Shown here: positions 9-48,962 of the stretch, piece after piece | Position numbering within the stretch: the first letter of the stretch is position 1 | Layout: each line of letters begins with the position of its first letter | IMG/VR virus record: IMGVR_UViG_3300025949_000035 | Coordinates: 1-48,962 of that record | DNA: 48,962 bases | From: a virus | Direction: 5' to 3' (one strand) | The notes under the pieces: generated by a model | Database searches by the model: none | Seen by the model: only the letters and a program-made list of their open reading frames with translations | Told to the model about the DNA's origin: nothing | Made by a program: the position numbers and the translations under genes

Positions 9-623
9 ATGCCGAGCGCAGAGCTGCCGGGCTGGGTGGAGCGGCAACAGTTCAAGGGCGACCACACGCCCGACAGGTCTGCGCTCGGCATGGTCGAGGA
101 GGTAGGGGAGGCGTGCGCCGCGCTGCTCGCTGAGACGAGGTTCGTGCAGAAGTACGACAGCCGCGCGACTGTCCTGCTCGCGATCGCCGGCTACCTCGGT
201 GTACTGGCGCGTGTCGAGCTCAAGGGCCAGCAGGGCATACGGTACGAACAGGGCGAGGGCGTCAAAGCCGAGATAGACGCGACGTGCTCGCTCAGCCAGT
301 TGGTCCACATATTCGTGGCGGGCTACGGCGACAGCAGCCGCCGCGCCATCGAGGACATATGGCGCGGCACCGGCCTGCACGAGGGGCCGGCGTTCCCGCG
401 CCCAGAGGGCGACGTGGCGACCGAGCTGGCGGACGTCCTGACGTTCGCGGCCGAGCTGGCCAACACACGGGGCATCCCGCTCGGGGCCGCTCTCCTGTCC
501 AGGTGGGCCCGCGTGCGGCAGCGCGACTGGGCGCGCGACCCGCGGCACGGCGGCGAGGAGCCGCCGTCGGACGAGCTGCTGCTCGGCGGCCTGCTCGGGG
601 AGGGCGACAGCTATGCCGGCTAG
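9..623 (+). CDS. MazG-like all-alpha NTP pyrophosphohydrolase
   Basis: Probably hydrolyses a (deoxy)nucleoside triphosphate to the monophosphate and pyrophosphate, shaping the phage nucleotide pool. The two metal-binding helix motifs of the MazG/HisE fold are visible: EEVGE at residues 30-34 and ELADV at about 139-143, followed by an amphipathic helix. The roughly 100 residues between them are longer than in minimal MazG domains. It is the first of three such genes in this operon and overlaps the next gene by 11 bases. The ATG lies 8 bases from the window edge, so an earlier start cannot be excluded. Substrate is unknown. Confidence 0.7.
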   Translation: MPSAELPGWVERQQFKGDHTPDRSALGMVEEVGEACAALLAETRFVQKYDSRATVLLAIAGYLGVLARVELKGQQGIRYEQGEGVKAEIDATCSLSQLVHIFVAGYGDSSRRAIEDIWRGTGLHEGPAFPRPEGDVATELADVLTFAAELANTRGIPLGAALLSRWARVRQRDWARDPRHGGEEPPSDELLLGGLLGEGDSYAG

Positions 624-1575
624 GCACCCATCGCAGATGGTCATAAACCCGCAGCAGCTTGGCTGGCACGCGTTCATAGCGTTCATAGCCGAGCGGCAGC
701 GCATATGGCGCGTCAAGTCGTCGGGCGCACAGCCGCCGTGGACCGACGACCCTGTGCTGGCGGGCGGCAAGTTCGGCAACGTGTTCCGGCGGCTGGACCG
801 CGGCACGGTGTGGGAGCTGGCGCAGATAGACGCGCACGGCGGCCCGCACACACCCAACACCAGCCTGCAACAGAGGCAGCTCGAGCTTGTGCTGACGTAC
901 CGGCACAACCTTATACCGCGCACGACCGAGACGCTGATGAGCGGGCTCGGGCCGGTCGCGTTGGTGCGGGACGACCGCCCGCTCATGTCGGACGTCATCA
1001 AGATATGGCCGCTGCTCCCGTGCGACCAGCAGCACGCGACGCACGAGACGTGGGCCGAGTACTGCTACGCGCACTACCAGGACGTACGGCGTTGCGCGCT
1101 CACGCTTTGGAGGCTGTTGCACGGCGAGACAGACATACAGAAGGACGGGCACTTCGCGCCAAAACAGCCGTCCGCACACTGGCTGCACGGTTGGCTGCAG
1201 GCGTCCATGCCGCGGCTAGGGTCGTTCAAGGCGTACGAGGTGCTCACGTCCATGACGTACCTGACGTGGACCTGCATTAGCGAGAATGACTTCCCGCACG
1301 TCGGGCACGGCGCCATGCCGGCCCTGCGGTCCCTGACCGGCGACGACGAGACGCCGGACGACCAGATGTGGCTGTACCTGCCGTACATGGCGGAGCAGCT
1401 CACGCGGCTCATGCCGACTACAAGCGGATGGGAGTGGCCACCGGACATGTCGCACCGCTTCACCTGCCGGTCGGTGGAGGACGCACTGTGCGAGTACCGC
1501 AAGTACTGCGCGGTCAAGGCCGGCACACGGGACAACCGCCCGTACCCCGACAATCTAAGGAGGTGGGAGCAATGA
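613..1575 (+). CDS. DNA base hypermodification enzyme homologue (5-hmdU kinase helical domain / alpha-glutamyl-putrescinyl thymine pyrophosphorylase family)
   Basis: The protein has the pattern of the helical domain found in phage enzymes that build hypermodified pyrimidines: aromatic/Arg helix ERQRIWRVK near residues 27-35, then PPWTDDPVL (41-49) and KFGNVFRRLDRGT (53-65), and near the C-terminus a DVEncLCEf-type motif seen here as VEDALCEYRKY. No P-loop kinase is fused to it, so it resembles stand-alone clades rather than the kinase. Family members act on 5-hydroxymethylated pyrimidines in DNA. Neighbours are nucleotide-pool enzymes and a thymidylate-synthase homologue, which fits. A divergent relative lies at 46692-47702. 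Family assignment is from memory of the motif; the exact reaction is unknown. Confidence 0.65.
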   Translation: MPARHPSQMVINPQQLGWHAFIAFIAERQRIWRVKSSGAQPPWTDDPVLAGGKFGNVFRRLDRGTVWELAQIDAHGGPHTPNTSLQQRQLELVLTYRHNLIPRTTETLMSGLGPVALVRDDRPLMSDVIKIWPLLPCDQQHATHETWAEYCYAHYQDVRRCALTLWRLLHGETDIQKDGHFAPKQPSAHWLHGWLQASMPRLGSFKAYEVLTSMTYLTWTCISENDFPHVGHGAMPALRSLTGDDETPDDQMWLYLPYMAEQLTRLMPTTSGWEWPPDMSHRFTCRSVEDALCEYRKYCAVKAGTRDNRPYPDNLRRWEQ

Positions 1576-2198
1576 CGACATGCACAAAGCCGCCGAGCGG
1601 CTGGACGTGCTCGCGCGAGGAGGGCCACGAAGGCCCATGTGCCGCAAGCCCTGTGGACGAGCAGCGCGCGCCCGACATGCAGGCCATGGTCCGCGACTTC
1701 ATGGAGGCGTGCGACCAGGTGATAGGGCCGCAGCCCGGCCTGCGGGACCAGCTGCTGCGCATACGGCTGATACTGGAGGAGCCCACGGAGACGGCCAAGG
1801 CCATCTACGGCAACGACCTGCTGGAGGCGATCGACGGGCTCTGCGACTCGCTGTATGTTATACTCGGCACGGCCGTGGCGTTCGGCGTGGACATATACCC
1901 GTTCTTCGCCGAGGTGCACAGGTCCAACATGGCCAAACGGCACCCGGACACCGGGAAGGTGCTCAAGGACCTGTTCGGCAAGGTCATCAAGCCGGCTGGC
2001 TGGACGCCGCCAGACATAGAGGGCGTGTTCCGCGACCTGTACGGCGACCCAGCGGGCTTCCTGCCCGAGCGGCAGTCGCACGACGACAAGTGGCACGAGG
2101 TGTTCCGCATGGCTGAGCACAACGGCTGGGGGCCCGACACGATCATGGGCTGGATGGAGGAGCGCTCCTCCAAGGGGAGGGACAAGACGTATGGCTGA
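1572..2198 (+). CDS. HisE/MazG-like NTP pyrophosphohydrolase with N-terminal Cys/His motif
   Basis: All-alpha pyrophosphohydrolase of the phosphoribosyl-ATP pyrophosphatase-like group common in phages. The core runs LLRIRLILEEPTE (61-73), then EAIDGLCDSLYVI (85-97) with the acidic residues expected to bind Mg2+. The first 25 residues form a short Cys/His module (C4, C13, H19, C23) that recurs in actinophage and proteophage proteins. The ATG at 1572 follows a strong TAAGGAGG site and overlaps the previous stop region; a longer upstream frame exists but lacks this signal. Likely substrate is a canonical dNTP that competes with the modified nucleotide; that is inference. Confidence 0.7.
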   Translation: MTTCTKPPSGWTCSREEGHEGPCAASPVDEQRAPDMQAMVRDFMEACDQVIGPQPGLRDQLLRIRLILEEPTETAKAIYGNDLLEAIDGLCDSLYVILGTAVAFGVDIYPFFAEVHRSNMAKRHPDTGKVLKDLFGKVIKPAGWTPPDIEGVFRDLYGDPAGFLPERQSHDDKWHEVFRMAEHNGWGPDTIMGWMEERSSKGRDKTYG

Positions 2199-2535
2199 CC
2201 TGCCGGGCGTAGGCCCAGACGCGCCGAGGAGGGCTGACGGCAAGGCGAGCGAGTCGCCGTACAGGTTCGACCTGCTGCAGCCACACGCGCTGGCCGCGGT
2301 GGCCGCCCTGGCCAAGCGCGGCCACGAGAAGTACGGCATACACTGGACGGAGTACCAGCCGAACGACCACCTGAACCACGCGATGCAGCATATATTCGCG
2401 TACCTAGCCGGCGACAAGCAGGAGGGCACGCCGTCCGAGCACCTCGTGCACGCGGCCTGGCGGATACTGTCGACGCTTGACTGCGTGCTCCTCCTGGAAG
2501 CAGAGGAGGAGGCGCGCCGTGTATCAAGGCGGTGA
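2191..2535 (+). CDS. dATP/dGTP diphosphohydrolase-type (MazZ/DUF5664-like) protein
   Basis: A 114-residue protein matching the N-terminal dATP/dGTP diphosphohydrolase family: PYRFDLLQPHAL (23-34), AKRGHEKYG (41-49), NHAMQHIFAYLAG (62-74), and HLVHAAWRIL (84-93). The family includes MazZ of phages that remodel the purine dNTP pool. It starts with ATG behind AGGGGAGGGA and overlaps the preceding gene by 8 bases. No PurZ-like gene is visible in the window, so diaminopurine synthesis is not supported; here it more likely works with the other pyrophosphohydrolases of the operon. Confidence 0.7.
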   Translation: MADLPGVGPDAPRRADGKASESPYRFDLLQPHALAAVAALAKRGHEKYGIHWTEYQPNDHLNHAMQHIFAYLAGDKQEGTPSEHLVHAAWRILSTLDCVLLLEAEEEARRVSRR

Positions 2536-2905
2536 CCTGGTGCAGGTCACGGCCGGCAGGTGGGCGGGCTGCATCGGGTCCTTCGTCAAGATGTCGAAGG
2601 ACTACCCGCTCACCTGCTTCGTGACGGTGCACAGGCTGGGGACGGTGGCGGCGCAGGTCGACTCCGTCCTGCCGATAACGATGGAGGACGCCGAGGAGGG
2701 CAGGCTGCCAGCCGAGTTCAGGGACGGGCAGGTGGCCCTCGTCGACGCCATGCTTGCTGACAAGCGCGCCGCTTTCGAGAGGCTGGCCGCGCAGATTGTA
2801 GAGCTGGAGGGCATAAGGGATGAGTGCGAAGCTGGAGGGGAGTTCGCGGAGCAGGACAGACTACGACTTGGCGCGTCTCCGTACCGCGCTCCTGTGGGGG
2901 CTTGA
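2519..2905 (+). CDS. Small KOW-like protein
   Basis: Begins at GTG 2519, which sits behind a purine-rich GAGGAGGAGG tract inside the end of the previous gene. The first 50 residues read like a KOW/SH3-type barrel: GDLVQVTAGRWAGCIG followed by short beta strands. The C-terminal half is acidic and helical. The last 86 bases overlap the deaminase gene, a large overlap for this operon. KOW folds commonly bind RNA or protein; no specific role is visible. Confidence 0.5.
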   Translation: MYQGGDLVQVTAGRWAGCIGSFVKMSKDYPLTCFVTVHRLGTVAAQVDSVLPITMEDAEEGRLPAEFRDGQVALVDAMLADKRAAFERLAAQIVELEGIRDECEAGGEFAEQDRLRLGASPYRAPVGA

Positions 2906-3362
2906 GATGAGCCGCGACCCGGTGTGGAAGGTGGGCGCTGTGCTGGTGCACCCGGACCGCCGGCAGTGCAGCATGGGGTACAACGGGCTGGTCAAGGGCA
3001 TGCCCGAGACGCCCGAGAACTGGGGCAAGCCGCGCAAGCTCATGCTCGTGCGGCACGCCGAGAGGAACGCGATCAGCTGGGCGCCGTTCTACAAGCCGGG
3101 GTCCGAGCTGTTCGTGCCCCTGAGGCCGTGCGCCTACTGCCTCGGCGACGCCGTGAACAACGGCATATCGCGCGTGGCATGGTTCCGCGACCCTGCGAAC
3201 GAGGCCAACCCGGACTACTACGGGCCGGAGTGGGACATGTTCGCGTCCATGGTCGAGACCGCCGAGTACGACCTGGACGACAAGACGACCGCCATCCTCG
3301 CCCTGTACGGGCTGGACGGCACGATGAAGTACCCAAAGGAGGCAGAGGGGTGTACAACCTAG
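2820..3362 (+). CDS. dCMP/cytidine deaminase-family zinc deaminase
   Basis: The zinc deaminase signature is complete: RHAERNAI with H79, E81 (zinc ligand plus proton shuttle) and PLRPCAYC with C104 and C107. The family deaminates dCMP to dUMP (ComEB-like) or related nucleotides. At 180 residues it is of usual size. In this operon it could feed the adjacent thymidylate-synthase homologue or act on a hydroxymethylated nucleotide; the sequence does not decide. The start overlaps the preceding gene; GGAGG-like purines lie about 10 bases upstream of ATG 2820. Confidence 0.8.
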   Translation: MSAKLEGSSRSRTDYDLARLRTALLWGLEMSRDPVWKVGAVLVHPDRRQCSMGYNGLVKGMPETPENWGKPRKLMLVRHAERNAISWAPFYKPGSELFVPLRPCAYCLGDAVNNGISRVAWFRDPANEANPDYYGPEWDMFASMVETAEYDLDDKTTAILALYGLDGTMKYPKEAEGCTT

Positions 3363-4309
3363 CGTTCGACGGGATGGACGACGCGTACCACGGCCTGGTG
3401 TCGTTTGTGTCCGCCAAGGGCACGCGGTACCAGCCGCGCGACAGGATGTGCGTGGAGGTCAGGCCGGCCACGTTCGAGCTGGCGCAGCCCGAGTACGGCT
3501 TGTACTCTGGCCGCAGCCGGCGGCTCAACTACAGGTTCATGGCGGTGGAGACGCTGCTGTACCTGGCCGGCCTCGGCGGCGAGCCGCACGCGCGGCTGAT
3601 ACTCGATGCCAACCCGGCCATGGCGTTCGCGACCAACCCGGACACGGGGCACTTCGACGGCGCGTACGGGCCGCAGCTGGTGCAGTCGCTGCCGGCGATA
3701 CAGGACCTGCTGAGGAAAGACCCGCACACGCGGCAGGCGGTCGCGTCCATATGGTCGCCCGACGTGCCGACCAGGCTGGCCGGCAGCAAGGACGTGCCCT
3801 GCACGTGCCTGCTGCACTTCATGACCGAGCACGACAACGACGGCGAGCCTATGCTGTCGCTGCACGTGTACATGCGGTCCAACGACCTGAACTGGGGGAC
3901 GCCGTACGACGTCGCCGCGTTCACGACCGTGCAGCTGGCCATGGCCGGCGGCCTCGGCCTGCGCGCCGGTAGGTACTACCATACGTGCGGCTCCCTGCAC
4001 TACTACGAGGAGCACCCGGCGAATGACCAGGGCGAGAGGCCGCCGACGCTCGCGCCGACCTCGACGGAGAACTGGATACCCAACCTGCCGGCCGCAGCGT
4101 GGGAGGACGGCAGGAACATACGGGTCGTCATCCAGGACGCCGAGACGGCGTGCCAGCAGCTGCTTTCGCACCGCGGTAGCGGCAGGCTGTGGCGGGACTT
4201 CGTGCCGACGTTCGAGCCGTGCGCGGTGGTCGGCTGGCTGTTGCGCGTCATGCAGTTCCGTCACCCGAAGTCGGACGCCAAGTGGAGGGACGAGGAGGCG
4301 GGCGAATGA
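3350..4309 (+). CDS. Thymidylate-synthase-family pyrimidine hydroxymethylase or methylase with Asp at the base-selecting position
   Basis: Starts at GTG 3350, seven bases behind AAAGGAGG, inside the deaminase 3' end; 319 residues. Catalytic Cys is C151 in DVPCTCLLHF. The phosphate/base-binding segment MRSNDLNWGTPYDV (175-188) places Asp187 where canonical dUMP enzymes have Asn (E. coli Asn177). H217 and Y219 of GSLHYYEEH match the conserved His/Tyr. Asp at this site is the hallmark of dCMP hydroxymethylase (T4 gp42 type). A role in making 5-hydroxymethyl-dCMP is therefore likely, although dUMP use cannot be excluded by eye. It sits beside hypermodification and pool-clearing genes. Confidence 0.8.
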   Translation: MYNLAFDGMDDAYHGLVSFVSAKGTRYQPRDRMCVEVRPATFELAQPEYGLYSGRSRRLNYRFMAVETLLYLAGLGGEPHARLILDANPAMAFATNPDTGHFDGAYGPQLVQSLPAIQDLLRKDPHTRQAVASIWSPDVPTRLAGSKDVPCTCLLHFMTEHDNDGEPMLSLHVYMRSNDLNWGTPYDVAAFTTVQLAMAGGLGLRAGRYYHTCGSLHYYEEHPANDQGERPPTLAPTSTENWIPNLPAAAWEDGRNIRVVIQDAETACQQLLSHRGSGRLWRDFVPTFEPCAVVGWLLRVMQFRHPKSDAKWRDEEAGE

Positions 4310-31350: not shown

Positions 31351-31419
31351 ATATATGTTGGTGACGAGGTCGACCGATCGACATCGAAATCAATCAATCA
31401 AAAAATATGTCGAAATCTA

Positions 31420-31448
31420 TTGACATATGAGAGATGATATGATATAAT
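31420..31448 (+). promoter_or_regulatory. Consensus sigma-70-type promoter
   Basis: TTGACA (31420-31425), a 17-base spacer and TATAAT (31443-31448): both hexamers match consensus exactly. It drives the rightward operon beginning at 31503. Surrounding DNA is unusually AT-rich for this genome. Confidence 0.85.
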
Positions 31449-31454
31449 AAAGAT

Positions 31455-31470
31455 GTCGATAATGATCGAC
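31455..31470. promoter_or_regulatory. Candidate operator palindrome at the transcription start
   Basis: GTCGAT and ATCGAC form a perfect inverted repeat around AATG, lying at the expected start point of the 31420 promoter. Further GTCGA half-sites occur upstream at about 31369, 31378 and 31409. A repressor, perhaps the ribbon-helix-helix-like product of the next gene, could bind here; that is inference. Confidence 0.5.
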
Positions 31471-39669: not shown

Positions 39670-40124
39670 CAGTATCGTGGGACACGCTGGACAAGGTCCA
39701 CAAGGTCCAGACCAACGGCAACCCGCAGTTCCTGACGGTCACGTTCGAGGACAAGAGCACACACATCTGCGACCTGGGCGCGTTCCTTCACGCCCAGAAC
39801 CAGCGGATCAACCGCGTGGTGCTCGCACTGACCAACGCGGGCTTCGACATACGCTCGCCCTACGAGATGGGGCTGGGCGCCTTCCCGATGCGCGAGCAGG
39901 CCGACATCCTGCGGACAGCCGCCGGCATGCTGCCCGAGCCCGAGAAGGCCGGCGCGGTGTACGGCCGCGACTTCGTGGCCCTCGGGCCGCACAACACGAG
40001 GGCCCTCGCCTGCACGTGCTCGCAGGAGACGTTCCAGCGGATGGCCGCAGGCAACACGGCCCACATGATCGGGGACCAGCACGACGATACGTGCCCGATG
40101 TACAGGGGAGGCCGCGATGGGTGA
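39666..40124 (+). CDS. Unrecognised 152-residue protein
   Basis: ATGA junction with the previous gene. Strand-rich N-terminus (FLTVTFEDKSTHICDL) and a C-terminal Cys/His cluster (CTCSQ, H, C) that may bind metal. Overlaps the Vsr gene by eight bases. Confidence 0.5.
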   Translation: MTVSWDTLDKVHKVQTNGNPQFLTVTFEDKSTHICDLGAFLHAQNQRINRVVLALTNAGFDIRSPYEMGLGAFPMREQADILRTAAGMLPEPEKAGAVYGRDFVALGPHNTRALACTCSQETFQRMAAGNTAHMIGDQHDDTCPMYRGGRDG

Positions 40125-40665
40125 TTGGGCCGACAACGCACTTAGAGGCACGTACGGCAAGGAGGTGGAGCGAGTAGCCAACAGCAGAGATAAGTGGGTG
40201 CCCGCGTCGACCGAGGGGTCGCGCAGGTCGATGGCCTCCAATCGGTCGACAGGCACGGGGCCGGAGCTCGTGCTGGCGGAGGTGCTCCGCCAGTCCGGGC
40301 TGCCGGCGTTCGAGATGAACGTGCGCGGCCTGCCCGGCACGCCGGACTTCGTATGGCGCGCGGAGAGGGTGGCAGTGTTCCTCAACGGGTGCTACTGGCA
40401 CCGCTGCGAGGAGTGCGCACTGCCGCCGCCCGGCGGGCCGAACGCCGAGAGGTGGCGGCTCAAGTTCGAGTCGAACGTGCGCCGCCACGCCGCGGCCGTG
40501 GCGGCCCTTGAGGCCGACGGCTGGCTAGTGTACACAGTGTGGGAGCACGAGGTGGCGGCCGAGTTCGTCGGCCTCGTTGTGGGCACCGTGGAGGCCATGG
40601 TTCAGGCCGGTGCCGAGGCGGCCCACAGTGGAAACGGAGGTGGAGACGTTGGCGACAGACCTTGA
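40117..40665 (+). CDS. vsr: Very-short-patch (Vsr) mismatch endonuclease
   Basis: Vsr-family nuclease that nicks next to T:G mismatches. Aligned motifs: MASNRSTGTGPEL (E50, equivalent to the N-terminal acidic site), GTPDFVW with catalytic D77, FLNGCYWHRCEEC (structural zinc Cys/His; H95), and the W.LKFESNVRR helix. A 38-residue extension precedes the usual start. No cytosine-5 methyltransferase is visible in the window, which is unusual because Vsr normally accompanies one; a link to modified pyrimidines in phage DNA is possible. Confidence 0.85.
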   Translation: MGDWADNALRGTYGKEVERVANSRDKWVPASTEGSRRSMASNRSTGTGPELVLAEVLRQSGLPAFEMNVRGLPGTPDFVWRAERVAVFLNGCYWHRCEECALPPPGGPNAERWRLKFESNVRRHAAAVAALEADGWLVYTVWEHEVAAEFVGLVVGTVEAMVQAGAEAAHSGNGGGDVGDRP

Positions 40666-43917: not shown

Positions 43918-44334
43918 ATGCCTAGGAAACCTGGCTGGTTCATACGCATACAGCTGTACGCCCACGAGCCCGAGGCGGGCATGGACGAGCAGCTGGTCAA
44001 GACCGAGGAGGTGGACGTGCTCGCCAACATGGAGCAGTCGTACCCCGAGGTGCTCAACATGGTCGTGGCGGCGGCGACGCTGCTGCAGCGGCCGGTGCGC
44101 GGCGACGCGCCGTTCGAGCCGGCGGACCCGTCCAGCCCGGCCAGCGTCTGGGCGGCGGGCGTGCTGGAGGCGTCGCGCGTGTTCAAGAACTTCGCGCTGC
44201 TGTGGCGGCGCGACTACGAGAGGCACATATTCGCAGAGGAGGCGAGCAGACATGCAGACGTTCCTGCCCCACCCGGGGTTCAGGGAGTCGGCGAGGGCGC
44301 TGGACCCCCGCCGGCTGATGAAGCAGCGGCTTGA
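43918..44334 (+). CDS. Unrecognised 138-residue protein, possibly leaderless
   Basis: ATG 43918 has no Shine-Dalgarno match but lies four bases past a TACAAT element. The protein begins with a basic strand (RKPGWFIRIQLYAHEPE) and is helical later. Its last 83 bases overlap the glycosylase gene; the Pro-rich C-terminus there looks like read-through of the other frame. Confidence 0.5.
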   Translation: MPRKPGWFIRIQLYAHEPEAGMDEQLVKTEEVDVLANMEQSYPEVLNMVVAAATLLQRPVRGDAPFEPADPSSPASVWAAGVLEASRVFKNFALLWRRDYERHIFAEEASRHADVPAPPGVQGVGEGAGPPPADEAAA

Positions 44335-44983
44335 GGCGCTGCACATACTTAGGACGCTGGACAGGCGCGACGACGGCCCGTGGGCGTCGCACCCGGCCGT
44401 GCTCATGTGGCGCGGCCACGAGCAGGCGCTGCTGGACTACGCGCTGGCCATGTGCTGCGAGTGGAACGTGCGGCAGGGGGCCGGCCCGGACGGCACGCAC
44501 CGCGAGCTGCTGGGGCTGGTGTCCAGGTACGGCCCGTCGACGTCGTACCGGCCGCCGCCGTGGCTGGGGCTGGACGCGCTGCACTCCAACCACCGCAGCC
44601 GTCTGAAGCAGAAGAAGGCGGCGTACTACCCGGACGCGTGGGCGTCGGGCGAGCCGGAGGCGCCGGGCAACCTGTGGCCGACTACCAGGGCGCACGGCGA
44701 CTGGGTGTACATGATCGACGGGAAGGTGGTGGCCACGATGGGCATCGTGCCCGAGCGCCGGCTCAGGTTCGGCGAGGCGCGCCAGTGCGCCTACTGCAAC
44801 TACTGGCACAACCCGGAGGAGCTGACCGACGGGCAGTGCGCGACGTGCACCGACCTAGCCGACCAGGTGCTAATGGTCGCGGAGCTGCGAGCGGCCGGCG
44901 ACGCGGAGTCGCTGGAGGTCGCGGCGGAGCTGGAGGCGTCGGTGCACGACATGATAAGGCTGACGCGCCTGGGCCTCGTCTAG
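44252..44983 (+). CDS. Pyrimidine-dimer DNA glycosylase-like protein (MSMEG_6728 type)
   Basis: The N-terminal 140 residues follow the T4 endonuclease V-like MSMEG_6728 family: MQTFLPHPGFRESARALD (1-18), RLMKQRLEALHIL (21-33), HPAVLMWRGHEQALLDYAL (47-65), and HSNHRSRLKQKKAAYYPDAW. The family excises UV-damaged pyrimidines with AP lyase activity. An unusual C-terminal extension of about 90 residues carries a possible zinc ribbon (CAYC and CATC) and a helical tail. Confidence 0.75.
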   Translation: MQTFLPHPGFRESARALDPRRLMKQRLEALHILRTLDRRDDGPWASHPAVLMWRGHEQALLDYALAMCCEWNVRQGAGPDGTHRELLGLVSRYGPSTSYRPPPWLGLDALHSNHRSRLKQKKAAYYPDAWASGEPEAPGNLWPTTRAHGDWVYMIDGKVVATMGIVPERRLRFGEARQCAYCNYWHNPEELTDGQCATCTDLADQVLMVAELRAAGDAESLEVAAELEASVHDMIRLTRLGLV

Positions 44984-45709: not shown

Positions 45710-45736
45710 ACCATGCCCACCAAGGAGGGCGCACAG

Positions 45737-46198
45737 ATGATTAGACGCAGTTGCTATGCGGCCGCGGCCGCGATCGCCATTGTGGGGGGCCTGCTCGCCG
45801 GCTGCGGCGGGGGCGGAGGTGGTTCCTCGCCGGGCGGCGGCACGACCGGCTCTACCACGGGCTCGACTACGGGCTCCACCACCGGGGGCGGCGGCCCGTC
45901 TGCCTGGACCGGCCACTACTCGGGCACGTTCTCCGGCGACCTGGCCGGGACCATGACGGCCGACGTCACGCAGGACGGTGGCCTGTCCGCCACGCTCGCC
46001 GTCAACAACGCGGGCTACCGCTACATCGCCGGCTCGATCGACGCCTCGGGCGCCATCACGGGCACGTACACCTACCTGGGCAACACCTTCTCGGTGTCGG
46101 GCAAGGTGTCCGCGACGGGGACGCACGTCGGCGGTACGCTCGACGTCGGCGGGCCGGGCACGACCTACCACACGACCGTCGCCCTCACCAAGGGCTGA
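45737..46198 (+). CDS. Phage-encoded lipoprotein
   Basis: ATG 45737 lies behind AAGGAGGG; the in-frame ATG 45713 is in the terminator loop-out and rejected. Residues 1-22 form a lipoprotein signal peptide ending in lipobox LLAGC, then a Gly run and TTGS repeats as a flexible linker (23-55), then a beta-rich domain of about 95 residues (HYSGTFSGDLAGTM onward). Exported and lipid-anchored; small phage lipoproteins often block superinfection. Possibly acquired from the host. Confidence 0.75.
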   Translation: MIRRSCYAAAAAIAIVGGLLAGCGGGGGGSSPGGGTTGSTTGSTTGSTTGGGGPSAWTGHYSGTFSGDLAGTMTADVTQDGGLSATLAVNNAGYRYIAGSIDASGAITGTYTYLGNTFSVSGKVSATGTHVGGTLDVGGPGTTYHTTVALTKG

Positions 46199-46255
46199 CT
46201 GGGCGGCGCAAATGCCGGGCGCGCGCCGATCTGGGCGGCGTGAGCGCGTGGTATG

Positions 46256-46366
46256 TGCGGACCGGCCGGCGCCCGCGATAGCCGGGGCGCCCCACCGGGG
46301 CAACACGCCGAACGGCGGTCCGCAATGTGGCCACTGCCGGCCGCGGTCGACGCGGCCGGCACACAT
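46256..46366 (+). ncRNA. Structured leader RNA A
   Basis: TGCGGACCG (46256-46264) pairs perfectly with CGGTCCGCA (46316-46324). Inside, GGCGCCC and GGGCGCC close a loop holding GCGATAGCC, followed by ACCGGGGCAACAC and GCCG/CGGC. Directly after comes ATGTG...CACAT enclosing the 10-bp stem GCCGGCCGCG/CGCGGCCGGC (46336-46360). Same design and loop motif as at 37308. Part of the 305-base leader 46199-46503, which contains no protein gene. Confidence 0.55.
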
Positions 46367-46393
46367 GTCGCATCGTGCGACAAAAGAACCGAG

Positions 46394-46478
46394 TGCGTGG
46401 CAAGGCCGAGCAACCGTAGGCCCACGCAGCGGGAACCTGCACCGGAACAACACCGAGCAACCGTAGGTGCCGGTGCAG
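46394..46478 (+). ncRNA. Tandem hairpin motif with identical 11-nt loops
   Basis: Two consecutive hairpins. First: TGCGTG/CACGCA base, 5' bulge GCAA, GGCC/GGCC, loop GAGCAACCGTA (46408-46418). Second: CTGCACCGG/CCGGTGCAG base, 5' bulge AACAA, CACC/GGTG, the same loop (46455-46465). The stems differ but pairing is kept, including covarying apical pairs, so structure seems selected. It lies about 10 bases before the GGGGG ribosome site of the gene at 46504. Confidence 0.65.
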
Positions 46479-46503
46479 CACACAACATATGGGGGTAGCC
46501 GGT

Positions 46504-46695
46504 ATGGCAGACATGACTTTGGGCGAGCTTGTGCAGGTGGTCGAGTCGTTCACGCTCAGCGGCGTGCCGCTCTCGACGCCGGTCCGGCTGACAGACGGGC
46601 TCGGCGGCAAGTACGAGATGGAGCGGCCGCCGCAGGACCCGGCGCGGTTCACCGGCACAGAGATAACGTTCGGCGAGGGGGAGGAGCTACCGTGA
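46504..46695 (+). CDS. Small protein downstream of structured leader
   Basis: ATG 46504 with GGGGG upstream; 63 residues: helix LGELVQVVESFTLSG then a short beta segment (VRLTDGLGGKYEM). First gene behind the leader RNAs and coupled to the next by GTGA. Not recognised. Confidence 0.55.
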   Translation: MADMTLGELVQVVESFTLSGVPLSTPVRLTDGLGGKYEMERPPQDPARFTGTEITFGEGEELP

Positions 46696-47702
46696 CCCCA
46701 TGGGTGACGCCGGACAGGGACGTTGAGCGGAGGTTCTGGCGGTTCGTGCACGCGCGGCAGACGGCGTGGCAGAGGCGCCGCGACGGCATGCCGCAGGCCG
46801 AGTGGTGGCCGCCGGCCGCGGATGCAGCGGAGGCCGACTGGCCGGGCCTGCACACGGCCTGCCCGTACAGGGAGTGCAGCCCGCGGGCTGTGGCGATAAA
46901 CAGCAGGCTGTCTGACCACGTCAACATGGTGGACCCGTGGCTGCGGCCGCTGGCCCGGCTGATGGTGTGGCGCACGTACGGCGGCTTCGTGTACAAGGTG
47001 CTGACCGACCCGATCGGCGTGCGGCTGCTGGACGGCGACCCGCGCGAGGGCATGGCTAACGACCTGTCCGAGCACTGGGCCGCGCTCGTGGAGCTCGCGC
47101 TGCGCGAGGAGGAGTGCATAGGCGGGGCGGAGCTGCCGCGCGCCAAGGAGCCCGGCGACGACAACACGGAGGCGCTGGCGGCCGAGATAGTCGCAATGGT
47201 GCGCGCGTCCCGGGAGGCGACCAAGGCCTTCTGCAAGGCGCCGACCATACGCGGGCAGTACGAGGTGCTGGCGGCCATGCCCGGCGCGCGGCCGGCGGCG
47301 GCCTGGGAGGTCGCGTGCGACCTGGCAGAGCCGCTGGCCGACGGCAGGACGTGGTCGCGCGGCAGCCTGGACCAGTGGGCGCCGGTCTCCAGCCAGGCGG
47401 CCAAGGCCCTGAACGCTATGGGCGTCAAGGGGCCGCAGGCCACGCTGCTGCACGCGGTGCGGGACATGGCGGCCAGGCAGTCGCTGGCGTTCGAGGCGCT
47501 GTGCCTCGACTTCCCGTGGCTGCACGACAGGTCCGGCGCAGAGGTGCAGCTGTCGCTGGTCAACGTCGAGCGCTGCCTCGGCGAGTTCGCGAAGACTCTG
47601 AACACGAAAGGGCGCAAGCGCTACTCGCCGTCGGGCCGCGGCGAGCTGGTGCGCCCTATCGGCTGGTACGACAGCCCGTCCTGGGAGGGGCACAACGCGT
47701 GA
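46692..47702 (+). CDS. Second hypermodification-enzyme-like helical protein
   Basis: GTG 46692 overlaps the previous TGA. The 336-residue protein has the same outline as 613-1575: N-terminal FWRFVHARQTAWQRRRDG helix, a central helical body, and a C-terminal VERCLGEFAKTLNTKGRKRY motif that parallels VEDALCEYRKY plus basic RPYP end. The central PWTDDP and FGNVFR motifs are not obvious. It may be a divergent clade of the alpha-glutamyl/putrescinyl thymine pyrophosphorylase group. Assignment is tentative. Confidence 0.5.
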   Translation: MTPWVTPDRDVERRFWRFVHARQTAWQRRRDGMPQAEWWPPAADAAEADWPGLHTACPYRECSPRAVAINSRLSDHVNMVDPWLRPLARLMVWRTYGGFVYKVLTDPIGVRLLDGDPREGMANDLSEHWAALVELALREEECIGGAELPRAKEPGDDNTEALAAEIVAMVRASREATKAFCKAPTIRGQYEVLAAMPGARPAAAWEVACDLAEPLADGRTWSRGSLDQWAPVSSQAAKALNAMGVKGPQATLLHAVRDMAARQSLAFEALCLDFPWLHDRSGAEVQLSLVNVERCLGEFAKTLNTKGRKRYSPSGRGELVRPIGWYDSPSWEGHNA

Positions 47703-47983
47703 GCATCATAGACGACGCGCTAGAGGTGGCGCAGGCGGTGCACAGGGCCGTCGGGCCCGGCACGACAAAGACACAGGAGATACCGCCCGAGACGGTGGCG
47801 CTCTCGATGAGCCGCCGCACAGCGGCCGGGCTCAAGGCGCTCTGCGCCGACGTGACGCAGACGGCTACCGAGAACCACGTCGAGTTCCAGGGCCTGCGCA
47901 TATACGCGAACGACCACGTCCTCGACGGGTGGGCGTTCCTGCTCGACGCCGACGGCAAGGTCATCGGCCAGATACAGCTTTAG
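47699..47983 (+). CDS. Unrecognised 94-residue protein
   Basis: GTG 47699 overlaps the previous stop (GTGA). Helical first half and a beta hairpin at the end (WAFLLDADGKVIGQI). No family recognised; lies directly before the helicase. Confidence 0.5.
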   Translation: MSIIDDALEVAQAVHRAVGPGTTKTQEIPPETVALSMSRRTAAGLKALCADVTQTATENHVEFQGLRIYANDHVLDGWAFLLDADGKVIGQIQL

Positions 47984-48014: not shown

Positions 48015-48962
48015 ATGGCAGGTGGCGCGTCCCCGGCAATGGTACCGTACAGGCTCTCAGCACTCACAGAAGGCAGAAACAGGCTAATATGCGCGTCCGG
48101 GCCGCCGAAGGTGCTCAAGCACCTGCTGCGGGTCCAGGGCGCCGAGAGGCGGCGGGCGGGCGACAAGACGTTCGTCGCGCTGCCGGCCTCGCGCACCAAC
48201 ATCATGGTAGCCGAGGCGTGCGGCGTGGCCGCGTCCGCGCACGAGGTGTACCTCGCGATGCGAAACGAGCTCATGCGCCCCGACGACAGGGTCATGGCAG
48301 AGTGGGCCCGGGCCGAGCCGGCCCTCGCCCCGGCGTTCCTCGAGGAGGCGCGCGCGAACGGCTGGACCGTGCCGACAGCGGCGCAGCGGCAGTTCTGCGC
48401 GCTCGCCTACAAGGAGCGCGGGTTCCTCAACGCCTCGGAGCAAGGCACGGGCAAGACGCTGACGGCGGCCATGCTCATAAAGGCGTGGGGCTCGCGGCGC
48501 GCGCTGGTCGTGGTGCCCACACGGGACCTGACGCTACAGTGGCAAAAGGAGGTGTACCGCTACCTGGCGGACCCACCGCTGTTCGTGCCGCTGCTCGACG
48601 GCAACGCCAAGGAGCGGTCCGCTATGATGCGGCACATGGAGGAGTCCGCCGGCGGCGGCCAGCTCGTGGTGGCGGTCAACTACGACATGCTGCGCCACAT
48701 GGAGAGGGCGCTCGTCGCGTGGCGGCCGGACGCGGTCGTGCTCGACGAGGCGTGGATGATAAAGAACCACAAGTCCGCGAGGTCGCGCGCGGCCATCGCG
48801 ATCGCCGACGAGGCGGTGCACGTGCTAGCGCTGAACGGCACGCCGTGGGGGCAGGACCCGACGGACATGTGGCCGCAGATGCGCGCCGTCGACCCGGGCC
48901 GTGGCGACATGATGGAGACGCCCGACGAGTGGCGCGACGCCTACGCGACCGTCATACAGATG
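48015..48962 (+). CDS. SNF2-family helicase, N-terminal part (cut by window end)
   Basis: ATG 48015 behind AAAGGAG; open to the last base (316 codons). After a 110-residue N-terminal domain come PTAAQRQFC (Q-like motif), Walker A EQGTGKT (about 142-148), VVVPTRDLTLQWQKE (motif Ia), VVLDEAWMIKN (motif II, DEAW), and LALNGTPWGQ (motif III). SNF2-like phage helicases act in replication, recombination or annealing. The C-terminal RecA lobe lies outside the window. Confidence 0.85.
   Translation, partial: MAGGASPAMVPYRLSALTEGRNRLICASGPPKVLKHLLRVQGAERRRAGDKTFVALPASRTNIMVAEACGVAASAHEVYLAMRNELMRPDDRVMAEWARAEPALAPAFLEEARANGWTVPTAAQRQFCALAYKERGFLNASEQGTGKTLTAAMLIKAWGSRRALVVVPTRDLTLQWQKEVYRYLADPPLFVPLLDGNAKERSAMMRHMEESAGGGQLVVAVNYDMLRHMERALVAWRPDAVVLDEAWMIKNHKSARSRAAIAIADEAVHVLALNGTPWGQDPTDMWPQMRAVDPGRGDMMETPDEWRDAYATVIQM

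Follow-up and report, generated by a model that had tools for sequence, protein, structure and literature searches.

ANTAR target RNAs (those of EutV, NasR and AmiR) are adjacent hairpins in the 5' leader that are recognised through their loops. Recognition involves the residues of the loop and the top pairs, while the stems are structural and can vary as long as they pair, and the length of the linker between the two hairpins (5–12 nt) matters (PMC3369931). The loops are hexanucleotides with A at position 1 and G at position 4, and the hairpins frequently, though not strictly, overlap an intrinsic terminator (PMC3369931). The guanidine-II (mini-ykkC) riboswitch has two similar stem-loops with a linker of 7–40 nt, carries tetraloops that kiss when guanidinium is bound, and controls translation (PMC7544219). 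Phages have such elements too: the put RNA of HK022 is about 70 nt long with two stem-loops, lies downstream of an early promoter, and binds the zinc-binding domain of the RNA polymerase beta' subunit for anti-termination (PMC9378689).

The locus that we describe here shares something with each of these. It lies in a stretch of DNA, which we call the window, that is the whole of one IMG/VR virus record (48,962 bases, 68% GC). In the 5' leader of an operon of this phage we find two adjacent hairpins, H1 and H2, with the same 11-nt loop, the same CAA at the end of a 5' bulge, and different stems. We tentatively read them as a duplicated RNA recognition element that is bound by a protein which changes expression of the operon; this is our preferred explanation, although we would put it somewhat short of an even chance.

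As in ANTAR target RNAs, the hairpins are adjacent, have variable paired stems and sit in a 5' leader, and their linker of 8 nt falls within the ANTAR range. However, the loop GAGCAACCGUA has 11 nt and is not a hexanucleotide, and there is no intrinsic terminator on the + strand near the pair, so we rejected membership in that family. No ANTAR-domain protein was found among the window proteins scanned with Pfam, which covered part of the ORFs. We also rejected guanidine-II, which the pair resembles in having two similar stem-loops and a short linker, because 11-nt loops are not kissing tetraloops and there is no mini-ykkC match. The likeness to HK022 put is that of a phage element with two stem-loops, of similar size and at the head of an operon; but the two stems of put are not said to be copies, whereas these are, and there is no sequence or family match. 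The element may work like ANTAR target RNAs, guanidine-II or put, and membership in none of them is established.

Architecture of the hairpin pair

An earlier note on this DNA, made by reading the letters, had described twin hairpins with identical 11-nt loops at 46394-46478, with 5' bulges ending in CAA and with stems that differ while their pairing is preserved. Direct reading bears out the coordinates and the loops, and the bulges and both sets of stems are as claimed (Table 1).

Table 1. Features of the leader and the operon that follows it.
Feature	Position	Strand	Description	Basis
GC-rich hairpin	46335-46361	+	11 bp, without a T-run; same leader, upstream of the pair	folding
Dyad	46366-46382	.	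7 bp, TGTCGCA-TCG-TGCGACA; third small hairpin or DNA operator	
Hairpin 1 (H1)	46394-46428	+	basal helix UGCGUG/CACGCA, 5' bulge GCAA, apical helix GGCC/GGCC, loop GAGCAACCGUA	sequence and folding
Loop 1	46408-46418	+	GAGCAACCGUA	repeat search
Linker	46429-46436	+	8 nt, GCGGGAAC	sequence reading
Hairpin 2 (H2)	46437-46478	+	basal helix CUGCACCGG/CCGGUGCAG, 5' bulge AACAA, apical helix CACC/GGUG, loop GAGCAACCGUA	sequence and folding
Loop 2	46455-46465	+	GAGCAACCGUA, identical to loop 1	repeat search
Start-codon hairpin	46486-46506	+	small hairpin with Shine-Dalgarno-like GGGGG (46491-46495) and the AUG at 46504	folding
Gene 1	46504-46695	+	63-aa orphan	
Gene 2	46692-47702	+	336 aa; HMUDK_hel (PF18723, helical domain of 5-hmdU DNA kinase) matched weakly	overlaps the gene 1 stop codon
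Gene 3	47699-47983	+	94-aa orphan	
Gene 4	48015-48962	+	SNF2-type helicase, cut by the contig end	

Both hairpins follow one plan, which is a basal helix, a bulge on the 5' side only that ends in CAA, an apical helix of 4 bp and the 11-nt loop, and the whole element is 85 nt long. Inside the loops, folding adds an inner GC/GU extension that leaves an AACC tetraloop. In the apical helices the two outer pairs are swapped on both sides between H1 and H2 (GG/CC to CA/UG) with pairing kept. The basal helices have only the terminal UGC/GCA in common; the rest differs in sequence and in length (6 versus 9 bp) and is still paired. The loop and the CAA of the bulge are unchanged. That the loops and bulges stay identical while the stems diverge suggests that something recognises the loop and does so at two sites. 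With two copies in the same leader, the part that is probably read (loop and bulge) can already be told from the scaffold (stems).

H1 and H2 share the 15-mer CCGAGCAACCGTAGG, which occurs exactly twice in the window, with no further match at two or fewer mismatches. Only one other local 15-nt repeat is present in the window, a short-period repeat. Their spacing of 47 nt puts the two copies in different reading frames, which excludes a protein repeat.

A recent duplication could leave the loops identical without selection, and this counts against a recognition element, though the stems have diverged. In that case the pair might be a structural part of the leader that serves for mRNA stabilisation, as a ribosome standby site or for nuclease processing, with loops that are alike because they were copied locally not long ago. 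It would fit with a leader much of which folds as a series of stable hairpins, and with the lack of homologues that we report below. Neutral duplication, however, does not explain stems that diverged with compensation and a change in length while the loop and CAA stayed identical, and we consider a purely structural role unlikely.

Folding and chance tests

We folded the pair in a 342-nt context, where nearly all pairs of H1 and H2 have a probability of at least 0.9. The exception is the H1 junction pair at about 0.5, for which there are two competing registers. The fold z-score is -3.9 for H2 and only -1.5 for H1 alone. When 86 nt holding H1 and H2 are folded in isolation, the minimum-energy fold rearranges H1 while the centroid retains it, which makes H1 the weaker of the two hairpins.

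By itself, the 15-nt local repeat is only moderately rare in GC-rich DNA, as 3 of 60 randomised windows had one. The stems are much harder to obtain by chance. With random flanks of the leader's composition placed around copies of the 15-mer, the chance that one copy gains two extra apical pairs and, behind a 5' bulge, a basal helix that reaches 5 bp is 0.008; if the basal helix has to reach 9 bp, the chance is 0.0002, and the joint chance for both stem sets is about 4e-6. A screen of the whole window for adjacent hairpins with identical loops returned only the H1/H2 pair (plus its complement), and none of 25 randomised windows had any. The twin hairpin is real and well-formed, and it is probably functional.

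The leader and the start codon

The leader (46199-46503) is intergenic, has about 306 nt and follows an ORF at 45713-46198. The product of this ORF has a LAGC lipobox-like N-terminus and Gly/Ser/Thr repeats, and is possibly a superinfection-exclusion lipoprotein.

The pair ends 25 nt upstream of the AUG and does not overlap the Shine-Dalgarno region. It is at the edge of the initiation region, beside the hairpin that contains GGGGG and the AUG, so an effect on translation is plausible. We found no + strand intrinsic terminator downstream of the pair or near it, which makes classical attenuation less likely than translational or processivity control. Pairing between the loop and the start codon (CCGUA with UAUGG) is feasible but is expected by chance in a stretch like this, and we dropped it.

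The claim of the earlier note that this is a duplicated binding motif holds up as the best reading, given the identical loops, the CAA bulge, the divergent paired stems, the short linker and the site in a 5' leader; either of the two forms that it had offered, a cooperative riboswitch or a twin protein site, would fit. We think the twin protein site most likely, with action once transcription has begun. If ANTAR target RNAs are a guide, the simplest candidate reader would be a protein in the form of a dimer or a pair. Such a protein, as a dimer or as two copies and encoded by the phage or by its host, would read the loop and the CAA bulge as a unit. Bound to both hairpins, it could alter translation of the operon that begins at 46504 by way of the neighbouring start-codon hairpin; alternatively, binding might alter elongation or stability of the operon transcript. 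Against a recognition element of this kind, neither H1 nor H2 overlaps the Shine-Dalgarno sequence and the leader has no consensus promoter. No RNA-binding regulator was recognised among the proteins scanned, and AlphaFold models made without an alignment were too poor for use.

Neither a consensus promoter nor a terminator was found in the leader. Consensus promoters do occur elsewhere in the window, at 31420 (12/12) and 45032 (11/12), and the latter is the strong promoter nearest to the leader. The region at 31378-31463 has a perfect sigma-70 promoter (TTGACA-17-TATAAT), placed within AT-rich sequence at the boundary between divergent genes.

The pair could also be a put-like RNA. The operon would then begin with two stem-loops to which the host's RNA polymerase binds, and the bound polymerase would resist pausing and termination. 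The element, which measures 85 nt and heads an operon with its two stem-loops, is comparable to the put RNA of HK022, which has its stem-loops near early promoters (PMC9378689). In HK022, however, it is putL and putR that are alike, not the two stems of one put (PMC9378689), whereas the stem-loops here are copies. We found no promoter close upstream and no sequence match among phage records, and we regard a put-like RNA as very unlikely.

The leader is rich in inverted repeats, including the 7-bp dyad just upstream of H1 and H2, which has no second copy in the window, and downstream there is a helicase gene. Both would suit an element that works as DNA, such as an operator cluster or a site for replication or recombination, where the hairpins form as cruciforms or in single-stranded DNA. 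But 11-nt loops with one-sided bulges are more typical of RNA, the genome has no further copies, unlike iterons, the GC skew has no break at the element, and no REP transposase gene was recognised. A DNA-level role is the least probable of the explanations that we weighed.

The downstream operon

The four genes after the leader are co-oriented and the first three overlap by 4 nt. The earlier note had placed the pair just upstream of an operon for a second hypermodification-type protein and an SNF2 helicase, which is roughly right. The helicase is present, but as the fourth gene and truncated, and the first gene encodes an orphan. The hypermodification-type protein is gene 2, which matches HMUDK_hel weakly, at 26.6 bits with a cut-off of 25. 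BLASTP finds no meaningful pairwise similarity between this 336-aa protein and the second HMUDK-like protein of the phage (613-1575), and we therefore give the 336-aa protein its label only tentatively.

The 613-1575 gene is a strong HMUDK_hel match and is part of a cluster at the left end (613-4309) with MazG, dCMP deaminase and thymidylate synthase, which suggests thymidine hypermodification. The 5-hmdU DNA kinase phosphorylates 5hmdU in phage DNA en route to hypermodified thymidines (PMC6449724). The same phage has a Vsr-like mismatch endonuclease and a pyrimidine-dimer glycosylase domain (40117-40665 and 44252-44983).

This gene content could hint at a cooperative riboswitch, where each hairpin with its loop and 5' bulge is a small aptamer and the ligand a metabolite such as a plain or modified nucleotide tied to the thymidine pathway. 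The phage encodes 5-hmdU-kinase-like protein, thymidylate synthase, dCMP deaminase and MazG, and guanidine-II is a precedent for twin aptamers near a start codon (PMC7544219). However, Rfam 15 gives no match in the window at the gathering score, and a relaxed search gives unrelated sub-threshold matches with E of 1.1 or worse. We saw no switching partner either, as the full leader keeps both hairpins stable with the Shine-Dalgarno region outside them, no terminator follows, and the orphan status of gene 1 leaves no direct hint of a ligand. We find a riboswitch quite unlikely.

Should the pair prove to be a true regulator, we have an unclassified RNA of twin hairpins in control of a phage operon, maybe one linked to base hypermodification. 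More broadly, the GAGCAACCGUA loop and the CAA-ended bulge might define a class of twin-hairpin regulatory RNAs that is new. With it, a hypermodifying phage would time its operon for a DNA-modification-type gene and a helicase, and the mediator would be either a nucleotide ligand or an RNA-binding protein dedicated to this task. We consider this doubtful.

Search for relatives

With exact and relaxed patterns, we found no credible homologue of the hairpin or of the pair in IMG/VR, GTDB species genomes, phages or plasmids. The exact tandem 15-mer pair had no match in viral contigs or GTDB genomes, and the single 15-mer occurred in 27 stretches of viral contigs, none with a CAA bulge. The candidates that did come up were all rejected, as coding repeats, REP-like repeats or chance matches. 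Two tandem 11-mer matches in viral contigs were both coding repeats of the APTVAPT kind. In genomes the tandem 11-mer gave 18 stretches, mostly in-frame repeats and none with a 4-bp apical stem, one of them REP-like in an Acidobacteria MAG. A search for CAANNNN followed by the loop returned 109 stretches, and the one with an apical stem lies within a terminase-like gene. For the relaxed tandem core, just two pairs among the matches listed had stems in both copies; these stems were weak, and the pairs lie in repeat-like stretches of unrelated contigs.

Attempts to find close relatives of the phage by the downstream DNA and proteins were likewise negative. In IMG/VR neither the helicase nor the 336-aa protein has a close relative, and phage records contain none for the 63-aa or the 336-aa protein. 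In 33 records with a distant tail protein, a search for the HMUDK-like gene produced one marginal partial match with stop codons. A covariance model of the hairpin had no match in 50 records that share only the distant tail protein; this search had no positive control, so the null result says little.

The earlier note had taken an absence of homologues with conserved loops, together with no effect of loop changes on expression, as evidence against a duplicated motif. The exact and relaxed pattern searches did come back empty, which goes half of the way, but the phage is itself an orphan and its downstream genes are also without close relatives, so the absence of hairpin homologues is weak evidence. 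Conservation is therefore seen only between the two copies within one genome, and the twin hairpin remains a single case from one orphan phage.

The REP-like match in the Acidobacteria MAG (L352, 5829-5991) is a 40-bp tandem array with the same 11-mer between palindromes. We apply the label to this array for what we take to be the mark of such repeats, a GTAGG plus a palindrome. In the phage the 11-mer is instead the loop of a bulged hairpin. Its GTAG lies across the 3' end of the loop, without a comparable palindrome after it, and we rejected the phage element as a REP-like repeat.

Two unrelated viral contigs (L016, minus strand, about 4290-4258, and L004) have a single 8-bp hairpin with the loop GAGCAACCGUA in apparently non-coding DNA. 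This hairpin has no bulge and no twin, and an after-the-fact estimate puts its chance at a few per cent; we did not count it as a homologue. Contig L016 also carries a Pistol ribozyme (69.9 bits) between small ORFs at 3769-3833 on the minus strand.
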